64,000 bases of DNA from Cutaneotrichosporon cavernicola (Eukaryota > Basidiomycota > Tremellomycetes > Trichosporonales > Trichosporonaceae). Positions 4,106 to 46,475 of this stretch are shown here, piece after piece. The stretch covers positions 2,542,001 through 2,606,000 of the forward strand of contig NC_083395.1 in the NCBI RefSeq assembly GCF_030864355.1. The letters run 5' to 3'. The notes under the pieces are model-generated. The model was not told the origin of the DNA, did not search any database, and saw only the letters and a list, made by a program, of their open reading frames with translations. The position numbers and the translations under genes are program-made. Position 1 is the first letter of the stretch. Every line of letters starts with the position of its first letter.

Positions 4106-5401
4106 TTAAAAGCGTTCATCGCCGAAAGGGTTCCAGTCGTCCAGATCGAAATCGCCGTGGTCCTCTTCAAGCCACGTTTCACGGTCCTTGAAATACACCT
4201 TGCACAGTGCATCCTGTACTGCCTCCTCTCCCATGCCACCAATCCTCGGGGATTCACGTAGGTATTCCGTCACCTTGCCGTAGAACCACTTCTCCACCTC
4301 TGCGGCGTTGTCCGCGCCAGACTTGAGCGGACGCACAAATGGCATGCCAATATCCGGCCCAGCCACCTCGTCAAGTCCAACAAGGGTCAACGTCAGGTGG
4401 TCGAGAGCACATAGGAGGCGGCTCACGACGTGGGTGAGGTATCCGAACCGACTCTGCACGGCGTTCCCAAAGCGCCGATCCGCGGAAAACCCTGCTTCGG
4501 GCCAATACCCGTGCTGGCAAAACACTACCGTCACAGACTTGAGGTTTGGGCCGGGTACGAACATGAGAAAACTACGCCCGACTTCGTGGATGGGAACGAA
4601 GAGTGTGAGATCCTCCGTCCCAGGCCAAACACGCGGAACCGATGAGATGGGATGGCGATGTGTCACTAGCCACTGCATGATTGGATTAAGAGGGGCCGAG
4701 GCAACCCCACCAACAGCAGGTGCAAGTGGAAGTGAAAGGGCCCCCATTACTGGGGCTAGGGACGGATGCACATTGAAACCTGCAGGTGGAAACGGGGACC
4801 CGGGACGATGCAGGTCTTCGACTTCGAGGGTAGTGAAGACCTTCTTTGCAGGTGGAAGCTGTTGGACCCGCCGTCCACTCCAGTCTGCTCGAACACGTGC
4901 TACCTCCAACCTCTTAAATGCAGAGTAGTCTCCGTCTGGAAATGCGTTGCCGATCACGTCCAGAACTCGTACCTTGTGGGCCGCCTTGAAGGCTGCTGCA
5001 GGAGTCAGACCAGGCCCACATAGGCAATCGTCGCCAAGACACAAGGGGCGGCTAGGCTTCCAGCTCGGGAAGTCCGACTCGTACTCCCATGGCTCCAGGC
5101 AATACTCGTGGGTGACGCCGGCAAATGTGGTTGCGCCGTACATGGTACGGGTGACACGGAGGTGGCGGGAGAGTTGCAGTTCAGCTTGGGCGCGGACGTA
5201 GCGCGAGACGTCGTGGAGATTGACCAGGGCGAGGATGGGAGCAAGTTCGATGATGCGGTCGAGGATGTGGGGGAAGCGGCTTCCATCCAGGGTTGGTGGA
5301 TTTGGGGAAGTATTCGGCGAATGCTGTACGTCGTTGTGATCGCTCATGGTAAAGTTGGCGTTACAGTCGTCGACAGGGTGAGTGGGAGCGTCGGCGTCCA
5401 T
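4106..5401 (-). CDS. F-box-like/LRR-like family protein (family member A)
   Basis: A single exon of 431 residues, starting at ATG 5401; Met at 5347 is an alternative. The family N-terminal block lies at residues 38-90 (DGSRFPHILDRIIELAP, then LVNLHDVSRYVRAQ and LSRHL), resembling an F-box in spacing: hydrophobic-Pro, Ile-Leu, then Leu and Val-Ser-x-x-x-Arg. The middle has VRVLDVIGN, DLTLFVPIHEV, LKSVTVVF and LTLTLVGLDEVAG, which align with the same strands in the paralogues and read as irregular leucine-rich repeats. The C-terminal block is degenerate (DRETWLEEDHGDFDLDDWN). By analogy with F-box proteins it may be a substrate receptor for an SCF ubiquitin ligase, but Skp1 binding is not shown. 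Its nearest relative in style is the next gene, 5888-7051. Confidence 0.8.
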   Translation of the reverse strand: MDADAPTHPVDDCNANFTMSDHNDVQHSPNTSPNPPTLDGSRFPHILDRIIELAPILALVNLHDVSRYVRAQAELQLSRHLRVTRTMYGATTFAGVTHEYCLEPWEYESDFPSWKPSRPLCLGDDCLCGPGLTPAAAFKAAHKVRVLDVIGNAFPDGDYSAFKRLEVARVRADWSGRRVQQLPPAKKVFTTLEVEDLHRPGSPFPPAGFNVHPSLAPVMGALSLPLAPAVGGVASAPLNPIMQWLVTHRHPISSVPRVWPGTEDLTLFVPIHEVGRSFLMFVPGPNLKSVTVVFCQHGYWPEAGFSADRRFGNAVQSRFGYLTHVVSRLLCALDHLTLTLVGLDEVAGPDIGMPFVRPLKSGADNAAEVEKWFYGKVTEYLRESPRIGGMGEEAVQDALCKVYFKDRETWLEEDHGDFDLDDWNPFGDERF

Positions 5402-5887
5402 GCGAACTGGAGGCGGATGGAGACGGGCGGAGTGGATGCTGCGCTGTTGAGAGAATGTCGAACAGAGAAAGAGGTCTTTTTTACCTTATGAATGAAGGAC
5501 AAAATTGAGATGATGCAGGATGAAGATGAGAGATGCTGAATGAGAGAGAAATTTGTTGAAGTAGTCAAGTCGTAACGGTCACACCTATGGAGTCGACTCA
5601 ACGCAATTGCCGTTTCGAGAGCCGTCTCAAAAAAGAGTAAAATACAATGATAAAATGCAAGACGTCAATTCATTCGGCGAAAGCCACAGCGTCAAGCCAT
5701 CAGACCGCTGCGGTCTAGGCCCAGCACTCGGGGCAGCACTCTGTGTCACCTCTCGATCCCATTAATGGCTGCGCACAGCCTCTGTAGACAACTCTCCCAT
5801 TTAGTCACAACTCTCATTCGAGCGCCACATCGCCTGTCTTCCGTTAATTGATTGAAGCCGTCAAAGTGTCCTTACATGACCGCCATC
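5402..5887. other. Intergenic spacer between two F-box-like genes
   Basis: No gene seen. An AT-richer stretch around 5620-5670 (aaaaagagtaaaatacaatgataaaa) is the most notable base-composition change. The spacer must hold the promoter of member A (minus strand) and the 3' flank of member B. Confidence 0.5.
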
Positions 5888-7051
5888 TCATATGCGGACA
5901 ACTGAATCAGACACGTTTGGGTCTCCGGTGGGATTCCACGACGTCAACACCCCGTCATTGACCTCAGCCTTCCAAGCCGCATGGTCCAGAACTCGCACAT
6001 TGTTGATCGCGCGTTCCGTTTTCTCTTCGGCCCATCCCTCCTCGGCCGCCTGGTGGCGGATCGCGCGGGTCATCTTGCGCAGAAATTTGGTCTTGAGGAC
6101 GGAGCGAATGAAGTCTAGGATGTACTGTTGCCTAATGGAGGACCACCAGTCAAACGAGAACGCTTCTAGAATTTGCTCGAGCGTCTCGGGGTAAGAGGGA
6201 ATGAGGTTGAAGCCAGGCCCAAAGTCGTCTTTGATGTTGACCAGCGTGAGACGAACTGTGTCTAGGTGAGGAATGACCCCTTCGATGAGGTCTGAAGGAA
6301 CACCGAAGGAGTCAGAATGGCGCGGTTCCGATTCGATGACATACCGGGTGACGAATCCTACCAGGACCACGGTCACGGATCGAAGAGCGGCACCGAGGAC
6401 GAGAGCGCGTACGGTCGCCGCATGGCTGGTACGCCACACGGTAATCGAGACGTAGAGCGTCAGGCTTTCAAAGGTTGGCGGCAGGAAGGGAACGTTGAGA
6501 CAGGATGGGAACTCGTCATAGTAGAGGCCCGAGAGACTCGTAGCGGCAAACAGATGGGGAACAGTGATAGGGGGCCCTTCGAGGAGCGCAAAAGGAGCGG
6601 AAGATGCTATGCGGAGTACCTTGACATTCGCGAGACCTTGAATTAGAGGGGCAAGCTCCTCCTTGACATCTCCGTTGAGGTCAAGAATGCGGACCCCAGG
6701 GCAAGCCTCGAGGCACCACTCTGCGGCGCGGCTCACATACGCCGCAGTCTTGATGAGCGGCGGTGTCCACTTGTCGAGGATGTCATCAGAGTGTTCGTAA
6801 AACACAAAGACCGGTTTCCTGACTTGATCTTCGTCGACTTGGGTGTAGAAGCGGACGCCGTGGGTGGGTACATTGTCCGTACCAAAGTCGCGAATGGCTA
6901 GGCGATCGCACAGAACACGGTCCACTTGAGCGCGTACGCTCGAGCTCACGCAGCGCCAGCGGACGAGAGACGAGTGTTCGGAGAAGAGGAGAATGGTGTC
7001 GACGATGTGTGGGAAGCTGGCGCCATCGAGCCAGAATCCTGGCGGGGCCAT
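5888..7051 (-). CDS. F-box-like/LRR-like family protein (family member B)
   Basis: A single exon. I choose the ATG at 7051 (MAPPGFWLDG), giving 387 residues, because the family block then begins at residue 8, as in several paralogues. An in-frame ATG at 7225 would add 58 residues of unrelated sequence. The N-terminal block reads DGASFPHIVDTILLFSEHSS, VRWRCVSSSVRAQVDRVL. The middle motifs are WCLEACPGVRILDLNGDV, LTLYVSITVW, LRSVTVVLVGFV and LTLVNIKDD. The end (VRVLDHAAWKAEVNDG, SWNPTGDPN) shares its W-N-P ending with member A, so A and B look like a local tandem pair. Function is unknown; an F-box-like adaptor role is an inference. Confidence 0.8.
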   Translation of the reverse strand: MAPPGFWLDGASFPHIVDTILLFSEHSSLVRWRCVSSSVRAQVDRVLCDRLAIRDFGTDNVPTHGVRFYTQVDEDQVRKPVFVFYEHSDDILDKWTPPLIKTAAYVSRAAEWCLEACPGVRILDLNGDVKEELAPLIQGLANVKVLRIASSAPFALLEGPPITVPHLFAATSLSGLYYDEFPSCLNVPFLPPTFESLTLYVSITVWRTSHAATVRALVLGAALRSVTVVLVGFVTRYVIESEPRHSDSFGVPSDLIEGVIPHLDTVRLTLVNIKDDFGPGFNLIPSYPETLEQILEAFSFDWWSSIRQQYILDFIRSVLKTKFLRKMTRAIRHQAAEEGWAEEKTERAINNVRVLDHAAWKAEVNDGVLTSWNPTGDPNVSDSVVRI

Positions 7052-7225
7052 CGTGCGGGTACAGGTTACAGGAAGGGTGATGGTGGTAGTGATGGAGGGG
7101 AAGGTAGAGTGATGTGAGGTGACAAATGCGTTGAGTGATTGGACGTCGAGCGGAGGCAGATCGAGGATGCGAACAGCAACCCGATGAGCCAGTGACCTGT
7201 GCTCATTTTGTGTGTATCGGTTCAT

Positions 7226-11243: not shown

Positions 11244-12648
11244 ATGTCTAGCATTCCCAACGACCTCGGCGACGCCGTGCTCATCAGCCTGCCTACTCTG
11301 CTCCGCAACGGCGACTTTCCCAACCCCGTTATCATGGCTGACAAGGTCAACCTCGATGGCGTCCCGTTTATCGAAATCAATTCCCACCGCCTAACCTACA
11401 AGAACCACCATATCATCGGGCTTATCGACTTATCAGGAAACATCGATGGTATTTGGGGAATTGCAGGTACATCATTCCCTCCGTCCACCGTTGATTCCAG
11501 TGCCGTTAGACCCGGACGAGCCTACCCCAGCTCTGATGCTCACTGAAACAGACTCGTGCATCATCGACCCTTCCTCTTATCCGGGAATCGTGGACCTCGT
11601 ATTCGGGTATGCCGACGCCAAGGCCCGCCTCGCCCTCTGGGGCACCCATCCGGCCCTCCAGGACCATCTCAACAGCCACTACTATAAGCACGTGGTTAAG
11701 AAGTGCAACGGCTTTACCTCGACCTCTGGCAAACCGCTTCCAATTGCGTCTCGCGGAGTGCCTACACTCGGGGGGGAATTTGAGCTGTTCAGCAACATTA
11801 CCCACTACTGCCGCGTGTTCGACCTCGATTCGACGTGCGACCTAGAGTTGGTGAACGGCCTGCTGACCTCGGGACGTGTCTGCACCCTACGCGCGTACAA
11901 CAATACCGACATCAGCCAGCTCAAAGTCCCCCCCTCAGTCGTTCTCAAATGCAACTGCGTCCCTTCACCAGACACGCCGGAACACTGGACTGGCACTTTC
12001 AATCTCACTCCACCCGGTAGAGTCCCCGCAACCGTGCGCTTGGTGTACAACGTGAAGTATGCTTGGGCGGATGCGCTCTTTGTGTCGATGATGGGTATCG
12101 AGACTCTCCCCGAGAGCGTCAAGGAGCTCGTCGTACACTTCAAGTTTGTTCCTGGAGAGCGCCCTCGCTACTTTCTCTGCGAGGCTACCGCGCCTGGCTC
12201 ACACAAAATCGTCTCGGCCCACAGCACGACTGCCCCGATTCCAGAGCTCAAGGATAACGAGCACCTCGACCTGGTCTTCTTTCCCTGGTTGATTGACAGC
12301 AGTCTCTTCAAGAACATTGTCAAGCTGTACCGTCCAGGGCTGAAGATTACCCTGGTCGGTCTAGACGAGTTTGACGGGGCCCGTGAGGCTGACGCTGCCG
12401 GGGACCCCGCTTGGGAGGCCATTTACGACTCTCTTCCGTGGCAGGGATTTATGCCTCCTCTCCGTCCTCGTCCCTCTTTCACCTCGGTCGCGGACACGTT
12501 CGTTGACGATCTCGTCAAGACCTTGCATCGGAAGAAGAAGGCTCAAGCGCGTCGCGACGTGCGCGTGCTCACCTCGACAGAGTATCTCAAGCTTGGACAT
12601 GACGATGAGGAGGATTGGTGGCCGACAGGCCAGCCCCCGGGGTGCTAG
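11244..12648 (+). CDS. F-box-like/LRR-like family protein (family member C), spliced
   Basis: Two exons, 11244-11448 and 11501-12648, around a 52-nt intron; 450 residues. The first exon encodes 68 residues not found in other members (FIEINSHRLTYKNHHIIGLI), so this gene has gained a new N-terminus or begins within exon 2. From residue about 90 the family block appears in divergent form (IDPSSYPGIVDLVFGYAD, LALWGTHPALQDHL). It is followed by YCRVFDLDSTCDLE, VKELVVHFKFVPGERP, LKITLVGLDEFDG and the C-terminal VRVLTSTEYLKLGHDDEEDW. The strand order is the same as in the intronless paralogues. No function is known. The extra exon makes it the most structurally distinct of the canonical members. Confidence 0.72.
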
Positions 12649-15846: not shown

Positions 15847-17283
15847 TTACTCACTACATAACGTCGTCTCCAGAGTCGTGTCACACGGCTTCCCGCTCGC
15901 CCGCGCCTCGGCCTCCCATTCCTGGCTGTCCATGGCCCGCACGTTGGCAAAGCGCTCCATCCACTCCAGGCCGTGGTACTTACGTACCTTTTCCGCGACC
16001 ATATCCAGGAACTTGTCCCTCAAGATTGTGCACAGTTCGTCCCAGTACCAGGACTGGTACGACTGGGTCCTTCCGTCGGCCGTCTTGTTCTTGGCCATAT
16101 CCTCATCGGGCCTGAATGCCACTTTCGCAACGCCAAGAGCCAGGCTAGAGGCCGGGTCGATTCCCACAACCGTCAGCCGCGTGGTTGCGAGGTTGGGAAC
16201 AAGTTTCTCAATCATGTCTGCAAGAATACCACACGGGCGACTGTGTGGTATCGCCTCTGGCGTGTTCTCGTTGTAGTGTTTCAGGACCACCACAACGTCC
16301 CGCAGGCCGTAGTATGGCACGAACCCCCGGATTACCTGGCCCTCGTGTGGCGAGTGTGCATAGATTCTCACCCACAAGGTCAAGCGGCGCACGTCCCACG
16401 GGTACGCCGAGATCAGTGCGAGCGGACCCCGGTTGGATGCCAGGTTCAGAAACGTGTTGCCTTCCCTCCAATGGTACCTGTTATGGAGGGAGATGTCGAG
16501 GAGGAGGTTGTGGCAGGAGATATTTACGTCGTACATCTGCTCATACTTATCCGGGAACGCACGCACGGTATGGGGGTTCAGGCGGAGGTGTTCGAGCGCG
16601 GCCGACACGTTGCCTTCGATGTCGAGGACCTTCGTGGTCTTGAGGGCCTCATTGCACCATTCCTTGGCGCGGTTCACGCGAGGCTCAGAACGTCCGGCTT
16701 CCTTACCCCCCATCGGCTTAAAAGGAGAGATCCGTCGGTCGGAATTGTTCCATTCGAACCAGGAAATCCAGTCGATGTGGTAGTCCACCGAGGCCTCATG
16801 GAACGCGAAGCCGGGGATACGAAGATTGTGTACCGGCTCACACCACTTCTGCGCCGCGATAGTGTGTAAGTGGAGATTGTCTCGCGTCCCATACCGCTTC
16901 GGCGCCGTCATAGTGTAAAAGTGGTGTCCTACCTCTCGATCGTCTTTCGGCTCACTGATGACGAGGTGTGCGCAGAGGCGTGCGTCAACGCGCCGCCGCG
17001 TCGAGTGGCTGGTGGCGCGCAGCAATAAGAGGGAGCTGTATGGGGCCAGCTGGATTATGTTGTCGAGAATGGTCGGGTAGGCCTGCGAGTCGAGCACGTT
17101 GAGTGCGCCTGTCTTGGCATCCCTGCCAGGGTCGGCCCCCGTCGTGGGTCCGGGTGGCCAACCTGCTTGAGCGTCTGGGATCTGGACATGCGCAGCTTCA
17201 TCGACGATATCCGAGCTGGGCGCGCTGGGTGGTCCCGAGGCCTTGAGCCTGACCAGTCTGCGTTGAAAAATCTTGTTGAACAT
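15847..17283 (-). CDS. F-box-like/LRR-like family protein (family member D)
   Basis: A single exon of 478 residues from ATG 17283. The family N-terminal block begins at residue 64 (LDSQAYPTILDNIIQLAP, LLLLRATSHSTRRRVDARLCAHLVI). A basic, Pro-rich 60-residue leader precedes it. The middle motifs are WCNEALKTTKVLDIEGNV, NPHTVRAF, VRRLTLWVRIYA, LRDVVVVLKHY and ATTRLTVVGIDP. The C-terminal block reads VRAMDSQEWEAEARASG. Its start lies 333 bp from the start of member E on the other strand, with a tRNA gene between them, so the two form a head-to-head pair. It is among the best-preserved members, and its strand motifs most clearly show the LRR-like rhythm. Function is not known. Confidence 0.8.
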   Translation of the reverse strand: MFNKIFQRRLVRLKASGPPSAPSSDIVDEAAHVQIPDAQAGWPPGPTTGADPGRDAKTGALNVLDSQAYPTILDNIIQLAPYSSLLLLRATSHSTRRRVDARLCAHLVISEPKDDREVGHHFYTMTAPKRYGTRDNLHLHTIAAQKWCEPVHNLRIPGFAFHEASVDYHIDWISWFEWNNSDRRISPFKPMGGKEAGRSEPRVNRAKEWCNEALKTTKVLDIEGNVSAALEHLRLNPHTVRAFPDKYEQMYDVNISCHNLLLDISLHNRYHWREGNTFLNLASNRGPLALISAYPWDVRRLTLWVRIYAHSPHEGQVIRGFVPYYGLRDVVVVLKHYNENTPEAIPHSRPCGILADMIEKLVPNLATTRLTVVGIDPASSLALGVAKVAFRPDEDMAKNKTADGRTQSYQSWYWDELCTILRDKFLDMVAEKVRKYHGLEWMERFANVRAMDSQEWEAEARASGKPCDTTLETTLCSE

Positions 17284-17615: not shown

Positions 17616-18905
17616 ATGCCCGCCCCACAACCACCACAGAGCAAACCCGCATACCCGCGCCCAGCGCCATATAACCTCCATGGTCGACGAAAACGCAAGC
17701 GAAAGGACGCGGTGCCGCATCCACCGCGGAAGCCCGAACCAGCCGCAATCGACTCTGTGATGCTCCCGCACATTGTCGAGCGGATCTTGGAGCTCGCACC
17801 GCACGAAGCCCTCGTGGTATTAAGGGGTGTGAACCGTGCCCTCCGGGAGCGCGCCGATGCGCGGCTGGCAGAACACATTGTCCTCCGCGCACCCCATCCC
17901 CTCAAGATGCACGGCGTCTACATTCACTCGCGAGGGCAGCTCCCGACAGAGTTTTACGGGTCTGTCAGTGACGACATCAAGCTTCCCGGCTTTGCGTTTT
18001 TCGACGGTAACGCTCGCGAACCCTACTCGGCCGCGGTACAGGAGCGTGAGAAGCTTACCAACCACAACTATAAACCGGCCCGGCCAAGGGAGCACCGCCC
18101 ACTGTCACTTCCTGCCCGCCTACTTCTGAACCAAAAGGAAAGAGAAGAGAAAGAGGAGCGAGAGCGGCGGAGTAAGCTCACCGCGCGCGCGAGGGACTGG
18201 TGTCTAGCTGCTCTCGCTCACACGCGCGCTTTCGACTTGCATGGATTCAATGCAAAAGTCCTCCCCATGTTCTACGCATTGGAGAAGCATACGGGCAATG
18301 TCGAGGTCGTGCGCGTCGCCAACGACTGCGGCTTACGTTCCACAGACTGGCCGGGGGAAAGCGCACATCACTTGATCACGTCCATTGATGTGCGGACGCC
18401 CTGGCCCCACTTCGCTCCTCAGCCAAGTTACTCGATGCGAACAATGACGTTGTTCATCGACGTTCCAGCAAGGAGAAAGAGTGCTGCCCGGGTCCACTGT
18501 TACGACCCCTCTATGTGTGTGAGCGACATCACGGTGGTTTTGCGGGCCGTTCCCGCCACTTCGCCCCCTCTTCACGGTCCCCTCCAGGAGTTTGGGGTTC
18601 TGCTCTGGAGTGGCCGCGTGTATGAATGCGCAACAGAACCCCGAATCACGTTTGTCAACATCTCCAAAGACACGCAGTTCGCCGTCGGGCTGGAGCTCGA
18701 GGATGATCAAGGTGCCAACGGAGGCTACGAGGCGGCGTTCATGCGTGCGCTTGAGCAATGTGCGATCCGCCAGTTTGAACCTCTACACTTCCCAGCGGTA
18801 GATCCGGTGGAAGTCTTGCACCGTTGCGTACGTGTGCTGAGTATGGAGGACTGGATGGCCGAGGCGTCCAAAGACGACCGCGAGGCCTGCTTGACATTCT
18901 GGTAG
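17616..18905 (+). CDS. F-box-like/LRR-like family protein (family member E)
   Basis: A single exon of 429 residues. It opens with a basic cluster (GRRKRKRKD, residues 23-31) that could be a nuclear localisation signal. The family block follows at residues 45-92 (IDSVMLPHIVERILELAP, LVVLRGVNRALRERADARLAEHIVL); the Leu-Pro here is the closest of all members to a classical F-box opening. A charged insert (KEREEKEERERRSK) precedes the middle block WCLAALAHTRAFDLHG. Then come VEVVRVAND, MRTMTLFIDVPA, VSDITVVLRAV and RITFVNISKD, ending VRVLSMEDWMAEASKD. It is transcribed away from member D across a tRNA gene. A substrate-adaptor role is inferred only from the F-box resemblance. Confidence 0.8.
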   Translation: MPAPQPPQSKPAYPRPAPYNLHGRRKRKRKDAVPHPPRKPEPAAIDSVMLPHIVERILELAPHEALVVLRGVNRALRERADARLAEHIVLRAPHPLKMHGVYIHSRGQLPTEFYGSVSDDIKLPGFAFFDGNAREPYSAAVQEREKLTNHNYKPARPREHRPLSLPARLLLNQKEREEKEERERRSKLTARARDWCLAALAHTRAFDLHGFNAKVLPMFYALEKHTGNVEVVRVANDCGLRSTDWPGESAHHLITSIDVRTPWPHFAPQPSYSMRTMTLFIDVPARRKSAARVHCYDPSMCVSDITVVLRAVPATSPPLHGPLQEFGVLLWSGRVYECATEPRITFVNISKDTQFAVGLELEDDQGANGGYEAAFMRALEQCAIRQFEPLHFPAVDPVEVLHRCVRVLSMEDWMAEASKDDREACLTFW

Positions 18906-29059: not shown

Positions 29060-30112
29060 ATGACGCCGTCCCCACTGCGCCTTTCTTCGGTCATCAACTC
29101 GGAGCGCACAATTCGGCTCGAGGCCGACGTCGACGCCCACTTACGAGCTCTGAGCCTGGCAAATTCCCATACAGGCGCCTCAGCATCCCGCACGCCGGCC
29201 CTTGACCACTCTGCCTTTCCGCACTTGATCGACCGCATCGCCCACTTCGCCCCACCGCCGACTATCTTCGCGATCGCAAGTACGTCGCGCGCTCTACGCG
29301 CTCGCCTCCTCCCCAAGCTGTACGCACATGTGTCCCTCCTGACCTCTCGGGGCGACACGTACACCCTCCGCAGCGCGGCGGGCACAACTCTCTCAGGACA
29401 TGCACACCGCCCAGACACGATGTGGAACGAGGACGACCTGCCACGCCTACCAGGCCCGACCCGCGTTCTAGACCTCCATCCCGGCCGGAGCTGCCCGTAC
29501 CTCCCACCCGGCGTGATACGCTTGGTCAAGCCCACAATGGTGCGCCTCCGCCTTGTTGAGTTGTTGGCTCAGACCCGTCCCTTGGGACGCTTTATGCGCC
29601 TCCACAGTCCCGTTGACAACGAGATGCGCCTCGTCGTCATGGTCGAGCGCGACGTCTGGCTCGACGTGGACGAGTGGCGCTTCGACGCGCCCGTCTCCAC
29701 CCTCGTCGTCCACTTCTCTCGCGCCTGGTGTACTGGATACCGCCAGAATCCGGCGTTCGCACTACCCCACCTCCCAAGCACCAAGGAGCGCGAGATTGTC
29801 CTCATCTTCGACTACCTCGAGGGCGTTCGGACATTAGCGCTTGTTCCCGCCCTCGCGGACATTGTTGCCCACGCCTGTCGTCCCCACAGCGCAGAGACGC
29901 ACGTCACGATCGTCGGTGACACGGACGACACCAGGTGGTTGGAGCGCACAGTCAGTGCCATGCGCGCGCAGCTCGATGCATACGAGGACGACCGCGTCGA
30001 GTTTGACGGCACATGTCCCCTCAATCTCGTGTCACGTGCCGAGTACGCTGCTCGTATCGGCGGCGAGGCGTGGGCTATAGAGACAGACCCATCGTACCGG
30101 TATATTGGGTGA
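29060..30112 (+). CDS. F-box-like/LRR-like family protein (family member F)
   Basis: A single exon of 350 residues, the first of eight family genes in a row on the plus strand. The N-terminal block is at residues 47-88 (ALDHSAFPHLIDRIAHFAP, IASTSRALRARLLPKLYAHV). Then come TRVLDLHPGRSC, VKPTMVRLRLVE, VSTLVVHFSRAW, REIVLIFDYLEG and THVTIVGDTDD. The C-terminal block is well kept (LVSRAEYAARIGGEAWAIETD). Its start codon overlaps the stop of a three-codon upstream frame beginning at 29052 (ATG CCA GCA TGA), so the main ATG sits in an ATGA overlap. Function is unknown; an F-box-like adaptor is the working inference. Confidence 0.8.
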   Translation: MTPSPLRLSSVINSERTIRLEADVDAHLRALSLANSHTGASASRTPALDHSAFPHLIDRIAHFAPPPTIFAIASTSRALRARLLPKLYAHVSLLTSRGDTYTLRSAAGTTLSGHAHRPDTMWNEDDLPRLPGPTRVLDLHPGRSCPYLPPGVIRLVKPTMVRLRLVELLAQTRPLGRFMRLHSPVDNEMRLVVMVERDVWLDVDEWRFDAPVSTLVVHFSRAWCTGYRQNPAFALPHLPSTKEREIVLIFDYLEGVRTLALVPALADIVAHACRPHSAETHVTIVGDTDDTRWLERTVSAMRAQLDAYEDDRVEFDGTCPLNLVSRAEYAARIGGEAWAIETDPSYRYIG

Positions 30113-30772: not shown

Positions 30773-31924
30773 ATGCTCGACGCCTCAGCCTACCCACACA
30801 TCCTCGATACTGTCCTCGCGCACGCCGACTACACCGCTCTCCTATCGCTGCGCACCATCTCCAGAGACGTCCGGGACGCAGCCGACGCGCGCCTCGCCAC
30901 CCATGTCCGTCTCCACATTCCGTGTGGAGTACACGTCCACTCTCCCGGCCCACTAATGGATGTCAAGATAGACGTGCGCCTTCTCCGTGAACGTATGCGG
31001 TGCCTCGAAGTACGCTCGCTCATCTCTCCCGGCGGTAAATTGCCAGTGTTCATGGACTGGGCTGGGGCCATTGCCCCCGTCCGCCGCTCTCCCCGTCCCC
31101 AACCCCAACCCCACCCCCCATATCCCGACGCCTCCACGCCGGCCGACGACGCGCGACGACTTGCCGCGCGTCGCTCCCGGCGGGCAGTGAGGGTGCGATG
31201 TGCCGCCGCCTTATCGCGCGCCAAGGTCGTGGATGTCACATCCTTCCCGGCCGCGTGGATGCGCGACGGCGCGCCCGACCTCGTCAAGGCACTCAAGGCG
31301 GATACGTATCGGTTCCAAGAACCGTGGTGCGCTTGGGGTCGGCCACTCGATACGGCGGCCGGCGTGGTCTTCACTCCCCTCCTAGGGCGATTTGGGGAGT
31401 GGGTCATTCCCATCCCGTTCACGACTTTCCGCGGACCACGCCTCACCATCAACCTCACTGGTTTCCGGGTTCTCAACCCCGACGAAGCCGCGGTGTTTCC
31501 TCCAACAGCCGACGCACTCGTCTCGGCAGCTGAGATCGTCGTCAATTTCACTGCTCTTGCCGGTAAGGATATGCCGGCAGGCCATCTTGGCCTGGTGGTC
31601 CCGATGGCGCGCGTCGTGTTTCGTAACCCGACAGCGCGATTCATTCTAGTTGGTGCCGAAACTGTTGACCCATCCATTCTAGTTGGTGCCGAAACTGTTG
31701 AACCCCTCGTCTTTGGATATGAGTGTGCAGAACGCCAGGACCCCGACCAACTCCGAAGCAGTATTGTCAATGTAATCAACGTCTACGGTCTTACCAGCTG
31801 GTACCCGAATTACTGGAATGCTGAAGCCATCGAAACCCTCCCGAACCGCATCGCCATCCGCACACTCGAAGAGTACAAGGCAGAGATTGGCGAGCAACAG
31901 TACGCCCTCGAGACTACATTATAG
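30773..31924 (+). CDS. F-box-like/LRR-like family protein (family member G)
   Basis: A single exon of 383 residues. The ATG at 30773 is chosen because the upstream in-frame extension has no ATG and the family block starts at once (MLDASAYPHILDTVLAHA, LLSLRTISRDVRDAADARLATHVRL), the cleanest copy in the window. The middle motifs are AKVVDVTSFPAAW, LKADTYRFQ, AEIVVNFTALAG, ARVVFRNP and ARFILVGAETVDP. An 11-residue unit (ILVGAETVDPS) is then repeated in tandem with one change, from an exact-phase 33-bp duplication (31643/31676). The C-terminal block is intact (IRTLEEYKAEIGEQQYALETTL). It lies between tRNA-Lys and member H, with which it shares the SYPHILD opening. Confidence 0.85.
   Translation: MLDASAYPHILDTVLAHADYTALLSLRTISRDVRDAADARLATHVRLHIPCGVHVHSPGPLMDVKIDVRLLRERMRCLEVRSLISPGGKLPVFMDWAGAIAPVRRSPRPQPQPHPPYPDASTPADDARRLAARRSRRAVRVRCAAALSRAKVVDVTSFPAAWMRDGAPDLVKALKADTYRFQEPWCAWGRPLDTAAGVVFTPLLGRFGEWVIPIPFTTFRGPRLTINLTGFRVLNPDEAAVFPPTADALVSAAEIVVNFTALAGKDMPAGHLGLVVPMARVVFRNPTARFILVGAETVDPSILVGAETVEPLVFGYECAERQDPDQLRSSIVNVINVYGLTSWYPNYWNAEAIETLPNRIAIRTLEEYKAEIGEQQYALETTL
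31643..31708 (+). repeat. In-frame 33-bp tandem duplication inside member G
   Basis: The sequence attctagttggtgccgaaac recurs 33 bases later (31643 and 31676). The two units differ by very few bases, so the duplication is recent. It doubles the conserved LVG-A-E strand of the family fold without breaking the frame. Confidence 0.95.
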
Positions 31925-32087: not shown

Positions 32088-33380
32088 ATGCCGACACTAA
32101 CTTGCCTCGACGCTGCATCGTATCCTCACATCCTGGATGGTGTCCTCGCTTATGCACAGTACCCGGCTCTCCTTCTCCTCCGACGTGTGTCATGGTCTAC
32201 GAAACGCAAAGCCGACGCTTGTCTCGCTACCCATGTCATCTTGCACATGCCCGATTTCGGTCCACCAGTGTCCACTGGCGAGCGCTATCTCCGCGAGTAC
32301 GACCCCATATACTGCTGCGACCGCGTGCGCAGTCTAACGGTCCTGTCCTGTGCACCTGGAGTGCACCCACAAGCGCCTAGTGTTGCGCCGCCACTACGCA
32401 ACACTGGGCCCTCTGTGCTGAGCCCAGGAGCCGCTGGTGAGGCCTACACCGCGCGCTTCCCACGCCCGCTCTTGCCTCCCGCGAGCCGCTTGCCTGGGCT
32501 TATGAGTTGGCGCGACGTGGCCACCCCAGAGCAAGAAATGCGAGCCCAGCGAGGCCTGCGCGCGGGTATGGTTATGGACGTGTGCGTACTGGACTCTCGC
32601 CGACGAGCACGCAAGACGGCGCTCGAGCGCTGTCTACGCGCCATCGAAGGAGTGCGCATCGTCGACGTCCCTGCACTGGAGGCGGCCCATCTGTCGCGCG
32701 GGGCGGGATTCGGCGCCATTGACCTACTAGCTGTCATCAAGCCCAATATCGTGCGATTCCACTCCGCATGGGGACCCGGGCCGGACCGCTGGGACTTCTT
32801 CCCAACAGCGCAACGTCGCGTACTGTTTGCTCCACTACTGAGGGTGGATGGCGGGAGGTGGTTCGTACCGACAGGTGATATCCCTGCGGTAGAGCGGGTG
32901 AAAATGCCTGCGAAGGACATTGTGATCCATTTCACCGGCGCGGCAGCGATACCGGCAGGGATTCAGACCCCCTTGCACGTGGACCGACGGACGATGACGC
33001 TCACGAAGATCGTGCTCATCTTCTCTGACGTTGGTGGAGGGGAGGGAGAGTCGGTCGGCGAAGATAGGGCAGAGGGAGAGGAAGGCGAGAGGGTCAACCC
33101 GTGGCTGAACGCCACAGCCGCGCTAGTCGCGTTCCTCATACACGGCGACATTACGCTGGTCGACTCGTCTCCCGTCTTGGGTACCAGGGGGGAGATTGTG
33201 GCAGCTTTAGAGAAGGCGGCGATGAAGAGGCGACAAGACAACGCCGCGCCCAACTGGCGTAATGACGACGGCGAAGAAGACGATCTGGCGCGCGTCCGGC
33301 TACTCTCAAAGGAGGAATACCGCGAAGTGGTTGGTGACCAGATGTTTGCGTTCGATATGGTCGGGCTCTCGGGAGCTTGA
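32088..33380 (+). CDS. F-box-like/LRR-like family protein (family member H)
   Basis: A single exon of 430 residues. The N-terminal block is at residues 7-55 (LDAASYPHILDGVLAYA, LLLLRRVSWSTKRKADACLATHVIL), closest to member G. A longer Pro/Arg-rich insert follows (residues 95-160). The middle has EGVRIVDVPALEA, IKPNIVRFHSAW, AKDIVIHFTGAAA, LTKIVLIFSDVGG and GDITLVDSSPV, with an acidic loop (GEDRAEGEEGE) between. The C-terminal block is conserved (VRLLSKEEYREVVGDQMFAFD). It stands 163 bp downstream of member G on the same strand, so the two probably arose by tandem duplication. Confidence 0.83.
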   Translation: MPTLTCLDAASYPHILDGVLAYAQYPALLLLRRVSWSTKRKADACLATHVILHMPDFGPPVSTGERYLREYDPIYCCDRVRSLTVLSCAPGVHPQAPSVAPPLRNTGPSVLSPGAAGEAYTARFPRPLLPPASRLPGLMSWRDVATPEQEMRAQRGLRAGMVMDVCVLDSRRRARKTALERCLRAIEGVRIVDVPALEAAHLSRGAGFGAIDLLAVIKPNIVRFHSAWGPGPDRWDFFPTAQRRVLFAPLLRVDGGRWFVPTGDIPAVERVKMPAKDIVIHFTGAAAIPAGIQTPLHVDRRTMTLTKIVLIFSDVGGGEGESVGEDRAEGEEGERVNPWLNATAALVAFLIHGDITLVDSSPVLGTRGEIVAALEKAAMKRRQDNAAPNWRNDDGEEDDLARVRLLSKEEYREVVGDQMFAFDMVGLSGA

Positions 33381-34087: not shown

Positions 34088-35098
34088 ATGTTTATCGGAG
34101 CAGCAACGAACGACAACACCATGGTCGCTGAGCGCTCAAACCCGTCCACCTCGTCGGAATCCAACACGACCGACACGCCTCCCTCCACCTCGCCCCCTTC
34201 CAGATCGCTGAGCACTCTCGCCTCATCACGCGGCCCAACGAGGTGCAGTATCGACGAGCTGCTACGGGGCCAAGAAGTCGGGTCCATGCGCACGAGCATC
34301 GACGGTACCCTCGACCACCTCGTCTTACACGCGCACACAGGCGTGGGGTATCTTGTTTGCGATCGCCGCGCTCCAGAGGACGAGATCGAGCTCGTCCTCC
34401 CAAACCCTGAGCAGCGGCGTGGTCTGCAACACCCGACGTCGAGTGAACGATCGACCGCACCCGCGCCCCGCCTTGCATCTGGCGTACTGCAGATCCCTGC
34501 AACGCTTGCTCTCCCCCGGCAGCTCGTGCAGAATCTGGCCCGTCACCTCCAGCCACGCACGCTCCTCGTCCCAGCATCCCTTGCCGTGGAGTATATCAAC
34601 GCTTTCCGGCCGCACACGGCGGTAGTGACCGCGTCTGCAGGGGTGAATCAGCTACGCATCCCCAGGATACACACTGTCGAGCTCCATGCACCCCTTGCTG
34701 TCCGCTCACAATGTGGGCGCCAGCCGGCGCAGGTGTTCGAGCTCGTCATAGATGCTGTTGATGTGTCGGCCTGTCTTGCCCAAGACGGCGATTGTGCCAC
34801 CTGCGTCAGCCACGCACCGCACTACGGGCGGGCCACGGCCGACGAAGAGCCGTGTCCCCAGATTCGACTCTGGGCATACATTGAGAGCCTTATTCCCCAA
34901 CTACGGGCGGGCCTGATTGTTGTGGTTGGGCTGGAAAGGTGGGGCCACGTGGACTGCGCCGAGCGAAACTGGGTCGACATGCGGGCGAGATATCGCGACA
35001 AGTGGGACGTGCCTAGCGTCATCGTGCGGACCGCCGACGAACATCGCCGGTACCGAGAGGACCAGACGTGGTGGGAGTCGATGGGGCTGGCGTGTTAG
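34088..35098 (+). CDS. Divergent F-box-like family member (I), N-terminal block lost
   Basis: A single exon of 336 residues; Met at 34121 is an alternative start. The first 60 residues are Ser/Thr-rich, and no Y-P-H-I-L-D block is present. Only weak echoes remain (SIDELLRG, SIDGTLDHLVLH). The later part keeps the family order: VVTASAGVNQLRIPRIHTVELHA, AQVFELVIDAVDV, GLIVVVGLERWG (matching x-T-L-V-G-x-[DE]), and the end VIVRTADEHRRYREDQTWWESMG, matching the C-terminal block with W in place of Y. So it appears to be a family member that has lost or remodelled the F-box-like part. If the N-terminal block mediates Skp1 binding, this protein would not act in SCF, or could compete with those that do. 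Confidence 0.7.
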   Translation: MFIGAATNDNTMVAERSNPSTSSESNTTDTPPSTSPPSRSLSTLASSRGPTRCSIDELLRGQEVGSMRTSIDGTLDHLVLHAHTGVGYLVCDRRAPEDEIELVLPNPEQRRGLQHPTSSERSTAPAPRLASGVLQIPATLALPRQLVQNLARHLQPRTLLVPASLAVEYINAFRPHTAVVTASAGVNQLRIPRIHTVELHAPLAVRSQCGRQPAQVFELVIDAVDVSACLAQDGDCATCVSHAPHYGRATADEEPCPQIRLWAYIESLIPQLRAGLIVVVGLERWGHVDCAERNWVDMRARYRDKWDVPSVIVRTADEHRRYREDQTWWESMGLAC

Positions 35099-35504: not shown

Positions 35505-35586
35505 CTCGGTTCTTTCCCTCTCAATCTTCATCTTCACTCTCTCGCATCGCACCACCAATCTTTTGCCGCCCTCATCTTCACTCGCC

Positions 35587-36684
35587 ATGATCCACGCTCG
35601 TCCATTCGGCACCCTCCCCACCAGTCCCATCGCCCCATCCATGCCCGGCGAACTCTCCTACCCTCCCCTCGACCCAGGACGTTTAGAGGCTTTCTTTGTC
35701 GCTTTCGGCGGTGAGATGAGGCGTCGGGAAGGAGCAGACGGCCTCATCGACCTACGTGAGCCACCTGTCGAGTTGGAGCGTTGCGTCCGAAAACGCTATT
35801 TCCATCTGATCGCCCGCGGGGCTATGCCGGGTCTGATGGCCTCTCACCGAGTGTACCAGGACGGAGCTCTCCGCACTCCCTCAGGTGCAGCCGTTCGCGT
35901 TGACCATGCTTGTTGTCGAGTGCTCGACAGTGTGCTTGATTTCAGCGTGGGCGATTGGTACGCTCTGGCTGCTACTGGTCCGGAAGTAGCGCGGTTATTC
36001 GGTCTGTCCATGGCGCGCATTCAGTGCGCATTGCGGATCTTGAGTCCACAGGCAGCAGTGTGTGTACCTCGTAAGCCTGCCTCTGATCGTGATACCTGTC
36101 TCCGCCTGCCATCGTCGGTCACGTCGTTGATCCTGCATACCAACCTCGGGTATGCTCCAGTGGTTCCGTTGGGCGACAAGTTGTGTCATCTGACACTCGT
36201 GATTCCAGTCGGGAGTCACCAGGTGCCTGCGAGAGCACAGTACCTGCGTCAGCTTGTTTCGTCGTTGCCGGACGCGGTCATCATCATCGTGGCTCCGGTT
36301 GCAGCTGTACCGGCGCTTAAGCGCCTCTGTATCGCTGCCGTCAAGTCGTTGCACTTGGCGAAACCCGTGCACATCGAAATCCGATCCAGAGAGGAGCATT
36401 ACCATTCGATCGGGAAGAAGTGCTGGGAATTGGAGATGATGTTCGGACACGACGACAGCGAGGCGCATGATTACGACGCCCGCGGCTCCGGCCAAGCCAT
36501 GCTGAACGACGGAAGCGACATCTCCGACGACGACACGGCCGAACCCCGCGAGATCGAAGACCATGCCGGGATCCTCAAAATCGACGAAAACGTGGCGGCC
36601 GAGATGGATCGCGTCCTCGGGACAACGAGGTCGATGAGCCTGCCTGGACGAAGGCTTCCAGAATCCTGCGCGCGAGGAGAATAG
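35587..36684 (+). CDS. Divergent F-box-like family member (J), N-terminal block lost
   Basis: A single exon of 365 residues from the first ATG at 35587; the frame is open 24 bases further upstream but only with TTG. A Y-P-P-L-D-P remnant of the opening survives (residues 24-29), but the helix after it (LEAFFVAFGGEMRRR) is not alignable with an F-box. The later strands are kept: ATGPEVARLFGLSMARIQ, LCHLTLVIPVGS, AVIIIVAPVAA and, exactly in family style, VHIEIRSREEHYHSIGKKCWELEMMFG for the C-terminal block. About 75 extra acidic residues follow (DDSEAHDYDA, SDISDDDTAE), unique to this member. It is the neighbour of member I, the other one lacking the N-terminal block. Confidence 0.7.
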   Translation: MIHARPFGTLPTSPIAPSMPGELSYPPLDPGRLEAFFVAFGGEMRRREGADGLIDLREPPVELERCVRKRYFHLIARGAMPGLMASHRVYQDGALRTPSGAAVRVDHACCRVLDSVLDFSVGDWYALAATGPEVARLFGLSMARIQCALRILSPQAAVCVPRKPASDRDTCLRLPSSVTSLILHTNLGYAPVVPLGDKLCHLTLVIPVGSHQVPARAQYLRQLVSSLPDAVIIIVAPVAAVPALKRLCIAAVKSLHLAKPVHIEIRSREEHYHSIGKKCWELEMMFGHDDSEAHDYDARGSGQAMLNDGSDISDDDTAEPREIEDHAGILKIDENVAAEMDRVLGTTRSMSLPGRRLPESCARGE

Positions 36685-36775: not shown

Positions 36776-40099
<3,324 letters not shown>

Positions 40100-40268
40100 C
40101 GTTCGAGTGAGTGGAGAGTTGAGCGCGTGACGTCGTGCGTCATCGGCGTTGGCCGGGGATGGGCCGGAATGCCAGTTCCATGTGGTGACCAAAGCAGGAA
40201 CAACGCATGTCAACATCAACTTCCACCCCCCAAGAGCTCAATCACACCCACTTCTCCTACCAAGCGCA
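40100..40268. promoter_or_regulatory. 170-bp bidirectional promoter between beta-galactosidase and member K
   Basis: Start codons at 40099 (minus) and 40269 (plus) are 169 bp apart, so both transcripts must initiate in this interval. No CGG-N11-CCG Gal4-type site is present. The C-rich stretch acccccc at 40227 onwards belongs to the leader of member K. Confidence 0.5.
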
Positions 40269-41453
40269 ATGACATCCGCGGCCACCACAGCCGCTGACTC
40301 CGCTTCGGCACCCATATCTGAGGCGATGGCCACCAGCTCCGCTCCTGAACCAGCGCCAGCGCTAGAGTCCGCCACTAATCCCGACCGTGCAGCCCTCAAC
40401 ATCACTGCCTATCCTCACATCTTCGATTCGATCCTCGCATTCTGCCCCGCGCACTACGACACAATAAAAGCCTTACGCTCCACCTGCCATGCGGCGCGCA
40501 ACGCGATCGAGGCCAACCTCGCGCGCCACATCACGGTCAAATCGACCTCGACGAAAGAAGGCAAGTTTCTTCACATCCGCAGCGCGTCTGGCGTACCGAT
40601 CCCAGGCGTCCGTGCGCGCGACTATCTCGCCCTCGCACAGGCTCGTGAGTCAGCTATCCCACCGGCGCGGCCCAAGAGACCCGGACCATCGCTGGAGCCG
40701 AGCTCGCCGGGGGACGTGACTCCCGAGCAGGCTCTGGCCACCATCGCCCGCGTGTTGGCCCATACGCGCGTGCTCGACGTCGGCGGGTTTGTTGGGGGAG
40801 ATGTCGTTGTCCAACTCGCTCCATGGCTCAAGCTCGATGTTGTGCGCCTCCCCACCTACCGCATGGCGGGAGCAAACGACAATAACACTACCCTCAACGC
40901 GAACACTGTTGTCCTCTCCCCATCCTGCGCAGGGGCCTACCGCTCAACATACGTGCTCATCGTGCCGCCTGGGACGCGGCGGTTCGTGACCCACGAGTTC
41001 ACAGACCTCGCCCCAGACACTTGGGCGACTGTGTCGTGTGGGTGTCGCGAGGGCTCTCCGCAGCCAGGCTACGCATGCCAGACCCTCGAGGAGGTGGTCA
41101 TCGCGTTCGTCCAGCGTCGCCCGGCCAAAGGAACGAGCGACATGGAGTTCGGGTATACGCCGGACCGCATAACCGCTCTTCGTAGGACTTTTCCGAACGC
41201 GCGTTTCGTGCTCGTTGGTGCGGAAGGGAGTCGGCTTGGCAAAACTCCACCAGCTCAGCGTCCGTTCGGCGAATCGAGCGAATATATCAAGCGCCTGATC
41301 CTCGAGAGTGAGAATGCTGCCAAACTGGGGGATTTCGAGTGCTTCAAGCTCGCCGAGTGGCGCAAGGTCATCGGCGAGAAGCGGTGGGCGCTCGAGATGG
41401 GACTCGGCGACACGCAGGTGCTGAACCGCACCGAGGGGAGTTGGAGTGAGTAG
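40269..41453 (+). CDS. F-box-like/LRR-like family protein (family member K)
   Basis: A single exon of 394 residues. An Ala/Ser/Pro-rich leader of 40 residues precedes the family block (ALNITAYPHIFDSILAFCP, IKALRSTCHAARNAIEANLARHITV). The middle motifs are AHTRVLDVGGFVGG, LKLDVVRLPTYR, TRRFVTHEFTDLA, LEEVVIAFVQRR and ARFVLVGAEGS. The C-terminal block is conserved (FKLAEWRKVIGEKRWALEMGLG). It is transcribed divergently from beta-galactosidase. A hypothetical F-box-like adaptor; the family function is not known. Confidence 0.82.
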   Translation: MTSAATTAADSASAPISEAMATSSAPEPAPALESATNPDRAALNITAYPHIFDSILAFCPAHYDTIKALRSTCHAARNAIEANLARHITVKSTSTKEGKFLHIRSASGVPIPGVRARDYLALAQARESAIPPARPKRPGPSLEPSSPGDVTPEQALATIARVLAHTRVLDVGGFVGGDVVVQLAPWLKLDVVRLPTYRMAGANDNNTTLNANTVVLSPSCAGAYRSTYVLIVPPGTRRFVTHEFTDLAPDTWATVSCGCREGSPQPGYACQTLEEVVIAFVQRRPAKGTSDMEFGYTPDRITALRRTFPNARFVLVGAEGSRLGKTPPAQRPFGESSEYIKRLILESENAAKLGDFECFKLAEWRKVIGEKRWALEMGLGDTQVLNRTEGSWSE

Positions 41454-42025: not shown

Positions 42026-43480
42026 ATGAGCGTCAACAGCGCCCTCGTCACCTGGAACATTGCCCAGGTCGCCCTTGTCGCGGTCCACGCCTCCTTCGTG
42101 CTCACCCAACCCGCGCCGACTTCCGCCCAACTCGTCCTCGTCCCGACGCATGCGCTTCTAGCCGTGCTGTTGAGTCCTGGGTTGCTGCCACCCATCGATG
42201 ATCCACCGGTTAGACCCAGCCGGACAAAGAAGCCTATCTCAGCCCCGTCGACACCACGCAAGCCGCGTATCGTAACCCCCGACACACCACCCCACACGCC
42301 CACCCCCAAGACTCCGCGCCGCCGCCCACCAGCCACTCCATCCAAACCGCTCTCGCCATGGCGCCCAACAGTCACCCCACAACCATATTCGCGCGTGCGC
42401 CGCACGCGAACAGCCCCTTGCCCACCTCCAACCCTCCCCCTAGAGTCGGTGCTATCCTACCTCGACTACGCCGACCTCCTCACCCTCCGCATCGTGAACA
42501 GAGAATACCGCGTCGCCGTCGATGCGCACTTCCACCGCGCACTGCAGCTCAACCACATAGGGTCGCGCGCGCACGGTCGCTCCCTCGCACCGCGAACTTG
42601 GGGCCGGCGTATCCCGCGCCTCGCACTCCCACGATCCCTCTCACAGCCGTCGCCGGTACGCGCACTGCACTTGGTGAATGGTGCTGCGCCGTTGCGCGTC
42701 CTCCGCGGCCTCGAGGTTCTGCGCGTAGGGCCTGTGCAGAATGTCACCCACCCCGCACCTACCACCATCGTCATGGCAACGCCCGTGGTAGCAGGAGCGG
42801 AGTGGGCACTCGCACCACGATACGAGTGGCCCGACCTCAGTGACGGGGTGCACAAGCTCGTCAGCACGATGCTGTATGTCCACTCGTCTCTCATTGGGAG
42901 CGAGGACGCGCCGCACACCCTCCTGCCCTCCCACATTTCTGAAGTTGTCCTGCACATCTGCCGATCTTCTCACCCGAGCCGATCTCGGCCGCTCTCCGAC
43001 CGCACCAACCTGTTCTCTAACGGCACGCCCTCCATTCTCGTCGTGCGTGGCCTGCACGGACGCGGACCACGACACGTCCTCCGCCTCGTGAACAGCACCG
43101 CCCGGCCCCGACTCCGGAATGGCACGGTCTCCACTGTCCTCCCCGAAGAACCGGTGTATGATGGCCAGCCCAAGTTGCTCGACGACTGGGCGCGCGCTAT
43201 CGCGCGTAACCTCCCAGGACGCGTGTTTACGCTTGTCGGGTCGGAGGGCTGGCACCCGCTCTGGCTCGCGGCCGGGTACAGCCCGGTGGAGGGCAAGGAC
43301 GTCGTGTGCAACCTTCGCCTCAGGTTCATCGCTGAGATTGCGCGGCTCGCGCGGGCACTGCACGACTGGAGTGTTGAAGAGACAGCACGGGTTGTGGAGG
43401 AAGGTGTGCATTTCGTCACGGTCGCCGAGTACTGTGCCAGCGTCGGACGGACGCAGTACGACCTAGAGACGCGGTGGTGA
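42026..43480 (+). CDS. F-box-like/LRR-like family protein with N-terminal hydrophobic segments (family member L)
   Basis: A single exon of 484 residues, starting at ATG 42026. Residues 5-50 form two hydrophobic stretches (VTWNIAQVALVAVHASFVL and LVLVPTHALLAVLLSPGLL), so this member may be membrane-attached, unlike its relatives. A basic Thr-Pro-rich linker follows (TPHTPTPKTPRRRPP). The F-box-like block at residues 137-170 is shorter (LPLESVLSYLDYADLLTLR, VNREYRVAVDAHF). Next come LRVLRGLEVLRVG, VHKLVSTMLYV, ISEVVLHICRSS and RVFTLVGSEGW. The C-terminal block is intact (FVTVAEYCASVGRTQYDLETRW). The start codon overlaps the stop of a seven-codon upstream frame (42006-42029), forming ATGA as in member F. 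Confidence 0.8.
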   Translation: MSVNSALVTWNIAQVALVAVHASFVLTQPAPTSAQLVLVPTHALLAVLLSPGLLPPIDDPPVRPSRTKKPISAPSTPRKPRIVTPDTPPHTPTPKTPRRRPPATPSKPLSPWRPTVTPQPYSRVRRTRTAPCPPPTLPLESVLSYLDYADLLTLRIVNREYRVAVDAHFHRALQLNHIGSRAHGRSLAPRTWGRRIPRLALPRSLSQPSPVRALHLVNGAAPLRVLRGLEVLRVGPVQNVTHPAPTTIVMATPVVAGAEWALAPRYEWPDLSDGVHKLVSTMLYVHSSLIGSEDAPHTLLPSHISEVVLHICRSSHPSRSRPLSDRTNLFSNGTPSILVVRGLHGRGPRHVLRLVNSTARPRLRNGTVSTVLPEEPVYDGQPKLLDDWARAIARNLPGRVFTLVGSEGWHPLWLAAGYSPVEGKDVVCNLRLRFIAEIARLARALHDWSVEETARVVEEGVHFVTVAEYCASVGRTQYDLETRW

Positions 43481-44839: not shown

Positions 44840-45110
44840 GCCTACAAGTGTTGCAGTGTACAAGATACCCATACTCGACGTGTATATCCTCGCTTGTTTT
44901 GCTGCTCGGTTTGTATAATGCATTTGATTGATTTCATTTTGATTGAGGGGTGGATAATGTGCAGGGATTCTGCCGATCTGCCGATCCGATCTGATCGGCA
45001 TCATGTGCGTCTGTGCGTCATCTCACCCTGGCATCAGAATCGCCACCAAACTTGAACTTGACACTCATCCATCTCCCATCTCTCAACCTCCCTCGTATCC
45101 TCAACGCATC

Positions 45111-46475
45111 ATGTCAGCTCCGACTCTTGATGCCACAGCCTTCCCCCACCTCCTGGAAGCGGTTATTACGCAGGCGCCCCCCGCCTCTCTCCTTGCCCTC
45201 CGCGCAGCCTCTCGCACCTGCAAAGCGCGCGCCGACGCACGTCTGGCTGCCCACCTAGTCCTAGAAGATAGAGGCATGGGTGGTCGCTGGTTTGCGGCCT
45301 GGCACGCCTCCCTCAACCCGTCTCTCCTCATCGCCCCATCATCTCCAAGCGACATCCTAGCGGCAACATTCAACGCCTACTCGGTCTACACCCACGTGGG
45401 ACGTATGCGCGTCCTTGGCGCTCCACCCAGTGATACGCACTACAACTGGAACCAATTCGCCCGGCCTCATGGCCCCTTCGTAAAGGGCGCACAAGCATTC
45501 TTACCCCTCGTACGGGTGCTCGATCTACGCGGTGATATTGGCGTGTTGGCGGACACGACGGCCTTCAACCACGAAATTCCGCTCACCCGCCTCCTCCCTG
45601 GCCCAAGTGGGGAGATGGAAGAACGACCGCCTCTCTCTCGCACTCTCGCCCTCTTTCCCAGTCCGGGTGATATGGAACCAAACCACATCGCGGACGTGTA
45701 TCCCCGTTGTCGGCGGGTGGTGCTCAACGTCAGATGGCACAATGCGCCGGGGTTGGTGAGGGCGCGATTGCGCGACCTCGAGGGCGGAGACGAGGTCGTC
45801 ATTTCCTTTTCCGGATGGCACGCCCCGCCCAACGCCGAGGTCAGGGGAGTGGTGGAAGGGAGACCTACCCTTCTCCACGGGCCAGAATCGTTTACTCCGG
45901 CGTACTTTGAGGGCGTCAGCGAACCGGAGGAGGAGGAAGAGACGCTACCATGGCACCGACTCGGGCCGCGCGAGAACGATAATCTCCGATGGCAGGAACT
46001 CGCGTTCCTCGTCGCACTAAGTCTGTCTTGCGGCGCCAAGGTCACCATTGTCGACCTGGACCGCGTCGATCCCGGATGGCTTGATCCCGACTTTGCCCCA
46101 CCTGGCCTGAGCCCGACTGATGCCACACCACTCAACCCCACTCCCGCATCTCTCCTCAACCCCCCAGATCCTAATGATGACCACGAGGAACACGACGATA
46201 CGACCTTCGTCGCGGACCATCCCGACGATCTCGTCGACGTGCCCGTTACCGCACATTCTAGGGCCACGCTGCACGACCTCAAAGCCACACTTCGGGGGTT
46301 GCGGATCGCGCGCCGCGAAATGCCGAGCTTCTGGCTTGTCAATGGTCTGCGGGTGTATGGCCTGTGCACCGTTGTCATGCCGCAGTCTACGCGGGGCGTG
46401 CGTTTCATCACCGCCGAGCAGTATGCCGCTGAGGCGGACCCGCTCGAGACGGACGCGAGCGCATATGCGCTGTAG
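45111..46475 (+). CDS. F-box-like/LRR-like family protein (family member M)
   Basis: A single exon of 454 residues from ATG 45111; an in-frame ATG at 45003 would add 36 residues. The N-terminal block is at residues 6-50 (LDATAFPHLLEAVITQAP, LLALRAASRTCKARADARLAAHLVL). The middle motifs are PLVRVLDLRGDIG, CRRVVLNVRWHNA, GDEVVISFSGWHA and AKVTIVDLDRVDP. An insert of about 90 residues, Pro/Asp-rich and disordered (NDDHEEHDDTTFVADH), separates these from the C-terminal block (VRFITAEQYAAEADPLETD), which is partly eroded. It is the last family gene of the run. Confidence 0.82.
   Translation: MSAPTLDATAFPHLLEAVITQAPPASLLALRAASRTCKARADARLAAHLVLEDRGMGGRWFAAWHASLNPSLLIAPSSPSDILAATFNAYSVYTHVGRMRVLGAPPSDTHYNWNQFARPHGPFVKGAQAFLPLVRVLDLRGDIGVLADTTAFNHEIPLTRLLPGPSGEMEERPPLSRTLALFPSPGDMEPNHIADVYPRCRRVVLNVRWHNAPGLVRARLRDLEGGDEVVISFSGWHAPPNAEVRGVVEGRPTLLHGPESFTPAYFEGVSEPEEEEETLPWHRLGPRENDNLRWQELAFLVALSLSCGAKVTIVDLDRVDPGWLDPDFAPPGLSPTDATPLNPTPASLLNPPDPNDDHEEHDDTTFVADHPDDLVDVPVTAHSRATLHDLKATLRGLRIARREMPSFWLVNGLRVYGLCTVVMPQSTRGVRFITAEQYAAEADPLETDASAYAL

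Follow-up and report, generated by a model that had tools for sequence, protein, structure and literature searches.

Eleven of the 13 open reading frames (ORFs) that we examined in a 64,000-nucleotide stretch of the Cutaneotrichosporon cavernicola genome (the window; C3:2542001-2606000, in a genome of 20.2 Mb on eight contigs) are members of a single protein family. We consider it probable that they encode substrate adaptors of SCF ubiquitin ligases, as part of a large family, expanded in this lineage, whose members have a divergent F-box, probably an LRR-like solenoid, and a conserved C-terminal tail. The family is real, large and undescribed in the literature found, and it is of a known kind, that of expanded and diverged F-box adaptor families. 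Observed directly in the genome are the homology of an N-terminal block to F-boxes, the family size, the clustering of the loci, the divergence of the members, and genes for Skp1 and cullins. In the mechanism that we propose, the divergent F-box would dock on Skp1, the repeat region, probably an LRR-like solenoid, would bind a target protein, and the bound protein would be ubiquitinated. A short conserved C-terminal tail would form the third part of the protein. Separate members would bind separate targets, and the repertoire may have arisen as genes duplicated locally and then diverged strongly. One Skp1 match (PF01466, C4:3070504-3070647) and cullin matches at four places are present in the genome. 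The sole Skp1 match sits inside a cluster of family loci (C4:3.019-3.093 Mb), which may be coincidence.

All 13 ORFs, named A to M, are present in the window with one terminal stop apiece and total 16,587 bp. The original prediction took all of them for paralogs in a single local cluster. Membership holds for A, B, C, D, E, F, G, H, K, L and M and fails for I and J, and the cluster is one part of a family of at least 117 loci. Nine genes score 143-208 bits against a profile of 74 genome members in which they are themselves included, and are linked at E<0.01 by all-against-all BLASTP. Three of these are on the minus strand: A (window positions 4106..5401, 161.9 bits), B (5888..7225, 167.1 bits) and D (15847..17283, 194.7 bits). 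The other six are on the plus strand: E (17616..18905, 183.2 bits), F (29060..30112, 143.1 bits), G (30773..31924, 208.3 bits, frame open from 30593), its tandem neighbour H (32088..33380, 160.5 bits), K (40269..41453, 180.3 bits, frame open further upstream) and M (45003..46475, 157.4 bits). Divergent members C (11446..12648) and L (42026..43480), both on the plus strand, reach 81.9 bits each against the same profile, of which neither is part, although L095, a close relative of L, is included; the best of 250 shuffles reach 5.9 and -2.8 bits for C and L, respectively. The best relative of L is at C4:131095-132204.

The two remaining ORFs, also on the plus strand, are unsupported as members because they fall within their own shuffles and have no clear relatives elsewhere in the genome. 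ORF I (34088..35098) scores -4.7 bits against a best of 8.0 in 250 shuffles, and a genome search with it matches only itself and one further place at E 0.36. ORF J (35587..36684) scores 6.3 bits against a best shuffle of 7.3 among 250 and matches only itself at E<=1. They are two single-copy orphans that lie between members H and K (34088-36684). Ordinary genes also lie between members, at window positions 7836-9443, 19798-20895, 25733-27085 and 36776-40219; they comprise a transglutaminase-like gene, an MFS transporter, an acyl-CoA oxidase and, spread over two frames, a GH2 beta-galactosidase.

That I and J are indeed unrelated to the rest, and that identities are low (median 21%), could suggest a mixture of unrelated families sharing a chance motif. 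This reading is hardly credible given the long BLASTP matches between members, such as B with its closest neighbour in the tree, D (E 3.6e-21 over 414 positions), and G with H (E 2.6e-16 over 449 positions). Against it stand also the scores of C and L with a profile that contains neither, and the finding that 65 of 74 members, whose rows belong to the block profiles, have their F-box and C-terminal blocks within a single unbroken frame. Long matches and shuffles rule it out for the 11 genes, in the case of C and L the profile alone.

The N-terminal block has the consensus LDASAFPHILDAILAHAPHESLLALRATSRALRDRADARLFRHLVL across the 74 full-length members and is found in every one of them, partly by construction, as the loci were found largely through this block. 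The PH[IL] motif predicted for all 13 ORFs is seen by eye in the translations of eight (A, B, E, F, G, H, K and M) and is missing from the others; C has PGI and D has PTI at this place, and L carries the most ordinary F-box of the window (Pfam F-box E 0.0042, below cut-off). In gene A, the altered block is near residues 37-83 (57.6 bits). The resemblance of this block to an F-box, which had been proposed from the window, is supported by profile comparison with F-boxes of the same genome, by weak Pfam matches and by a predicted three-helix N-terminus. Using hhalign, the family block aligns in register over 43 columns with ordinary F-boxes (the 8 best of 32 F-box-like matches in the genome) at 91.6% probability and a score of 31.2; 200 column shuffles of the block reach at most 7.9% and a score of 15.8, and the C-terminal and middle blocks of the family give 0.1%. 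Taken together, these comparisons support homology of the block to the F-box for the family as a whole. The alignment opens a one-position gap adjacent to the conserved P in the LP(x)E region, where ordinary F-boxes are one residue longer.

Standard domain searches overlook most of the members examined. None of the 13 window ORFs gives a Pfam match above the curated cut-off, either to F-box or F-box-like or to any other family. Among the 74 members at E<=0.1, F-box-like is matched in 12 and F-box in 12 (best E 5.7e-6), leaving 62 with no F-box-like match; each of eight other listed Pfam families is found in one member only, and LRR families are absent from these sequence-based matches. In single-member Pfam scans, 2 of 10 genome members are above the curated F-box cut-off. 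Four of the 32 F-box-like matches in the genome are family loci (C3:206853, C3:196958, C1:3542543 and C4:3019417), all of which exceed the cut-off, two narrowly, and 28 lie outside the family loci. A sequence search of the PDB at E<=1 returned two FBXO22 sequences only, matched weakly across the F-box (E 0.52 and 0.61).

The gap beside the conserved P and the 62 members with no F-box-like match could also be expected of F-box-derived proteins outside SCF, in which an altered helix 1 would no longer bind Skp1 and which would act as stand-alone binding or scaffold proteins, or persist mainly through drift. Frames shorter than 250 aa at 11 of the 117 loci are compatible with decay, and equally with introns. 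We regard this alternative as unlikely: in the relatives of F and G that were compared, the altered block is conserved better than the rest of the protein, suggesting that it retains a function.

A structural model is available for one member, G. It predicts helices at residues 8-17, 20-26 and 31-41, with pLDDT 75-91 in the helical block within residues 8-41 and 89-91 for residues 11-40. F-box/LRR complexes are among the best structural matches of the model, with weak Z scores (3.6-6.3); going by the entry titles, we take the matched chains to be SKP2, FBXL3, FBXL5, COI1, D3 and Dia2. The three-helix fold and the strand/helix repeat that follows it are thus predicted only, and the LRR-like strands in fixed order described in the original prediction are a lead, given by a single medium-confidence model. 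Like the FBXL adaptors named above, the family has an N-terminal F-box followed by a repeat of strands and helices, here a predicted one. It differs from them in the one-position gap relative to ordinary F-boxes, the absence of an LRR match by sequence, the extra conserved C-terminal tail and the weak structural Z scores. This tail was initially described for all 13 genes. Of the 11 members, seven (B, E, F, G, H, K and L) match it at E<0.01; the match is weaker in M (E 0.016) and D (E 0.06), and A and C give none at E<=1.

Genome searches at E<=0.01 return 77 matches for G, 65 for D, 83 for M, 35 for A and 3 for L. Merged by place, they define 91 loci outside the window, or 102 with the 11 window members; one of these (C8:243789) is supported solely by similarity to the middle of G. 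Searches with two further members, L034 (92 matches) and L012 (88 matches), add 17 places over all 180 rows, of which 15 are new loci; of the two discounted, one is the distal end of a gene already counted and the other shares its open frame with a known site. The resulting 117 is a lower bound because the count is still rising and only the best candidates were scored, and a few short matches among these loci may be remnants. From part of the loci (the others are mostly on C4-C8), we obtained 82 distinct frames with E<=1e-6 to a first profile of nine members; eight frames shorter than 280 aa were dropped from the alignment, giving the 74 members, and C and L fall below the cut of this set. Most members (65 of 74) have both end blocks in a single frame, and by hand count open frames shorter than 250 aa are found at 11 of 117 family loci versus 14 of the 28 other F-box-like matches. 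The family therefore appears poor in introns; the prior removal of frames below 280 aa biases the first of these counts towards this reading. At C3:330701-331753, two F-box-like sites lie in one 726-aa frame, suggesting the fusion of two tandem copies.

The loci are strongly clustered. Of the 102 loci, 59 are within 5 kb of another (mean 4.9 and maximum 16 in 1,000 random placements) and 54 are within 350 kb of a contig end (27.7 expected). In 25 of 74 cases, a member and its closest relative by the tree are within 20 kb of each other (mean 2.4, maximum 10 in 1,000 shuffles). Clustering and the proximity of tree-nearest relatives on the contig support local duplication. Divergence is strong, with a median pairwise identity of 21% and best-paralog identities of 24-41% across the 74 members. 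In a quick tree with 45 of 82 inner branches weakly supported, the median end branch is 1.25 changes per column, and the path to the nearest paralog has a median of 2.56 and a minimum of 0.99. Paths to relatives in C. spelunceum are much shorter (0.31 between G and P0002, 0.21 between F and P0010). Of the local expansion with fast divergence proposed for the window, strong divergence is thus confirmed and local duplication supported. A recent burst is not supported: no pair among the 74 exceeds 41% identity, and the orthologs of F and G are closer to them than any paralog. Judged from these sequences, the duplicates are either old or fast-changing. Since F and G each have their own close C. 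spelunceum ortholog, the duplications that gave rise to them predate the species split.

Gene F shares 349 of its 350 residues with CcaverHIS002_0309790; its relatives in C. sp. HIS471, C. spelunceum and C. oleaginosum are 70-93% identical. Gene G has the ortholog P0002 in C. spelunceum, and those of its stretches that are kept in CcaverHIS002_0309800 match at 99%. By these matches, the genome belongs to C. cavernicola or a very close relative. The latter protein (P0008, 223 aa) lacks an internal stretch of G that P0002, P0003 and P0005-P0007 keep, so its gene model probably contains a false intron. In C. spelunceum as in C. cavernicola, the locus numbers of F and G are adjacent, which argues that they are old and stable. 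Among the matches listed, the named relatives come from Cutaneotrichosporon species and Apiotrichum porosum, and the rest are metagenome contigs; scoring in these searches is limited to candidates with exact words in common, and in two of the three to about 8,000 candidates, so that relatives elsewhere may be missed.

Relatives of F are 81-98% identical in the F-box and 67-93% in the middle, and those of G 69-85% and 57-76%. The better conservation of the F-box fits adaptors whose docking part is fixed while the part that reads the target varies. In alignments, F and G each show 77% identity to the respective C. spelunceum relative (71% for G in the search listing), where random change without selection, at a reported nucleotide identity of 82%, would leave 65% protein identity. 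F is 93% identical to its HIS471 relative, and P0019 and P0020 are 90% identical, versus 86% expected at the reported 93.4% nucleotide identity. By this yardstick, a rough one and not dN/dS, the comparisons show that F, G and the pair P0019-P0020 are under constraint.

The conflict, recognition or drive roles put forward in the original prediction are unproven. They would come on top of the SCF mechanism and are compatible with it: the adaptors would recognise foreign or selfish proteins (of a virus, a transposon or a competing allele), or act as antidotes in toxin-antidote pairs. Such a role would suit a family of at least 117 clustered loci in which no pair of the 74 aligned paralogs exceeds 41% identity and change is faster outside the F-box. 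Moreover, the matches listed for L034 are confined to C. cavernicola apart from one distant protein; this narrow distribution is only a hint of turnover, as gene models may be missing. A precedent exists in the KSS/KSL family of Caenorhabditis tropicalis (PMC12680543, in the part accessible). F and G point the other way, as both are old and their C. spelunceum orthologs have adjacent locus numbers, and paralog divergence alone also fits drift. We consider a conflict role possible, if somewhat unlikely. Less likely still is the fullest version of this idea, a yeast repertoire of more than 100 SCF adaptors with a modified F-box that largely escapes annotation and destroys foreign or selfish proteins, as a fungal counterpart of the nematode F-box families suspected of immune and toxin-antidote functions.

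The SCF adaptor reading has its closest printed analogy, among those found, in KSS/KSL of Caenorhabditis tropicalis. As described in the accessible part of PMC12680543, these proteins have an F-box barely or not recognised by sequence and a solenoid resembling SKP2 and COI1, form a large, clustered and fast-evolving family, and serve as antidotes of toxin-antidote elements; KSS-1 was purified with an SKP1 relative. The C. cavernicola family is similar in its hidden F-box, its C-terminal solenoid (here predicted) and its size and clustering. It differs in that KSS/KSL belong to a nematode lineage with an expanded Skp1 set, whereas the C. cavernicola genome has one Skp1 locus. The resemblance is thus a likeness of form, not proof of function.

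The sections of PMC7991009 available list 19 F-box proteins in Cryptococcus neoformans and 95 in Laccaria bicolor, the largest fungal entry in its table. A large complement is common to two basidiomycetes, L. bicolor and C. cavernicola; compared with the 19 of C. neoformans, we count at least 117 family loci and 28 other F-box-like matches, by differing methods. F-box genes are also among the mushroom-development orthogroups missing from C. neoformans, according to the available text of PMC8893723. The accessible portion of PMC12062965 holds nothing on fungi outside its reference list, and in the literature searched, which covers subscription journals in part, we found no paper on F-box genes in Trichosporonales. 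In the accessible part of PMC10568926, the assemblies of C. cavernicola comprise seven chromosomes and a mitochondrial genome, and Table 2 gives 7,738-7,796 genes per strain; the word 'F-box' is absent from its main text. At these gene numbers, 117 loci would be about 1.5% of genes. If the members bind Skp1, their number would make a very large set of adaptors by the standards of a yeast, and the small genome would lend itself to studying the purpose of expanded F-box families. The importance of the family, now moderate, would be raised by Skp1 binding, selection or strain variation. Finally, five F-box-like matches in frames of 378-502 aa, missed by the family queries, lie at C6:1943853-2020174 and are perhaps a second local F-box expansion.
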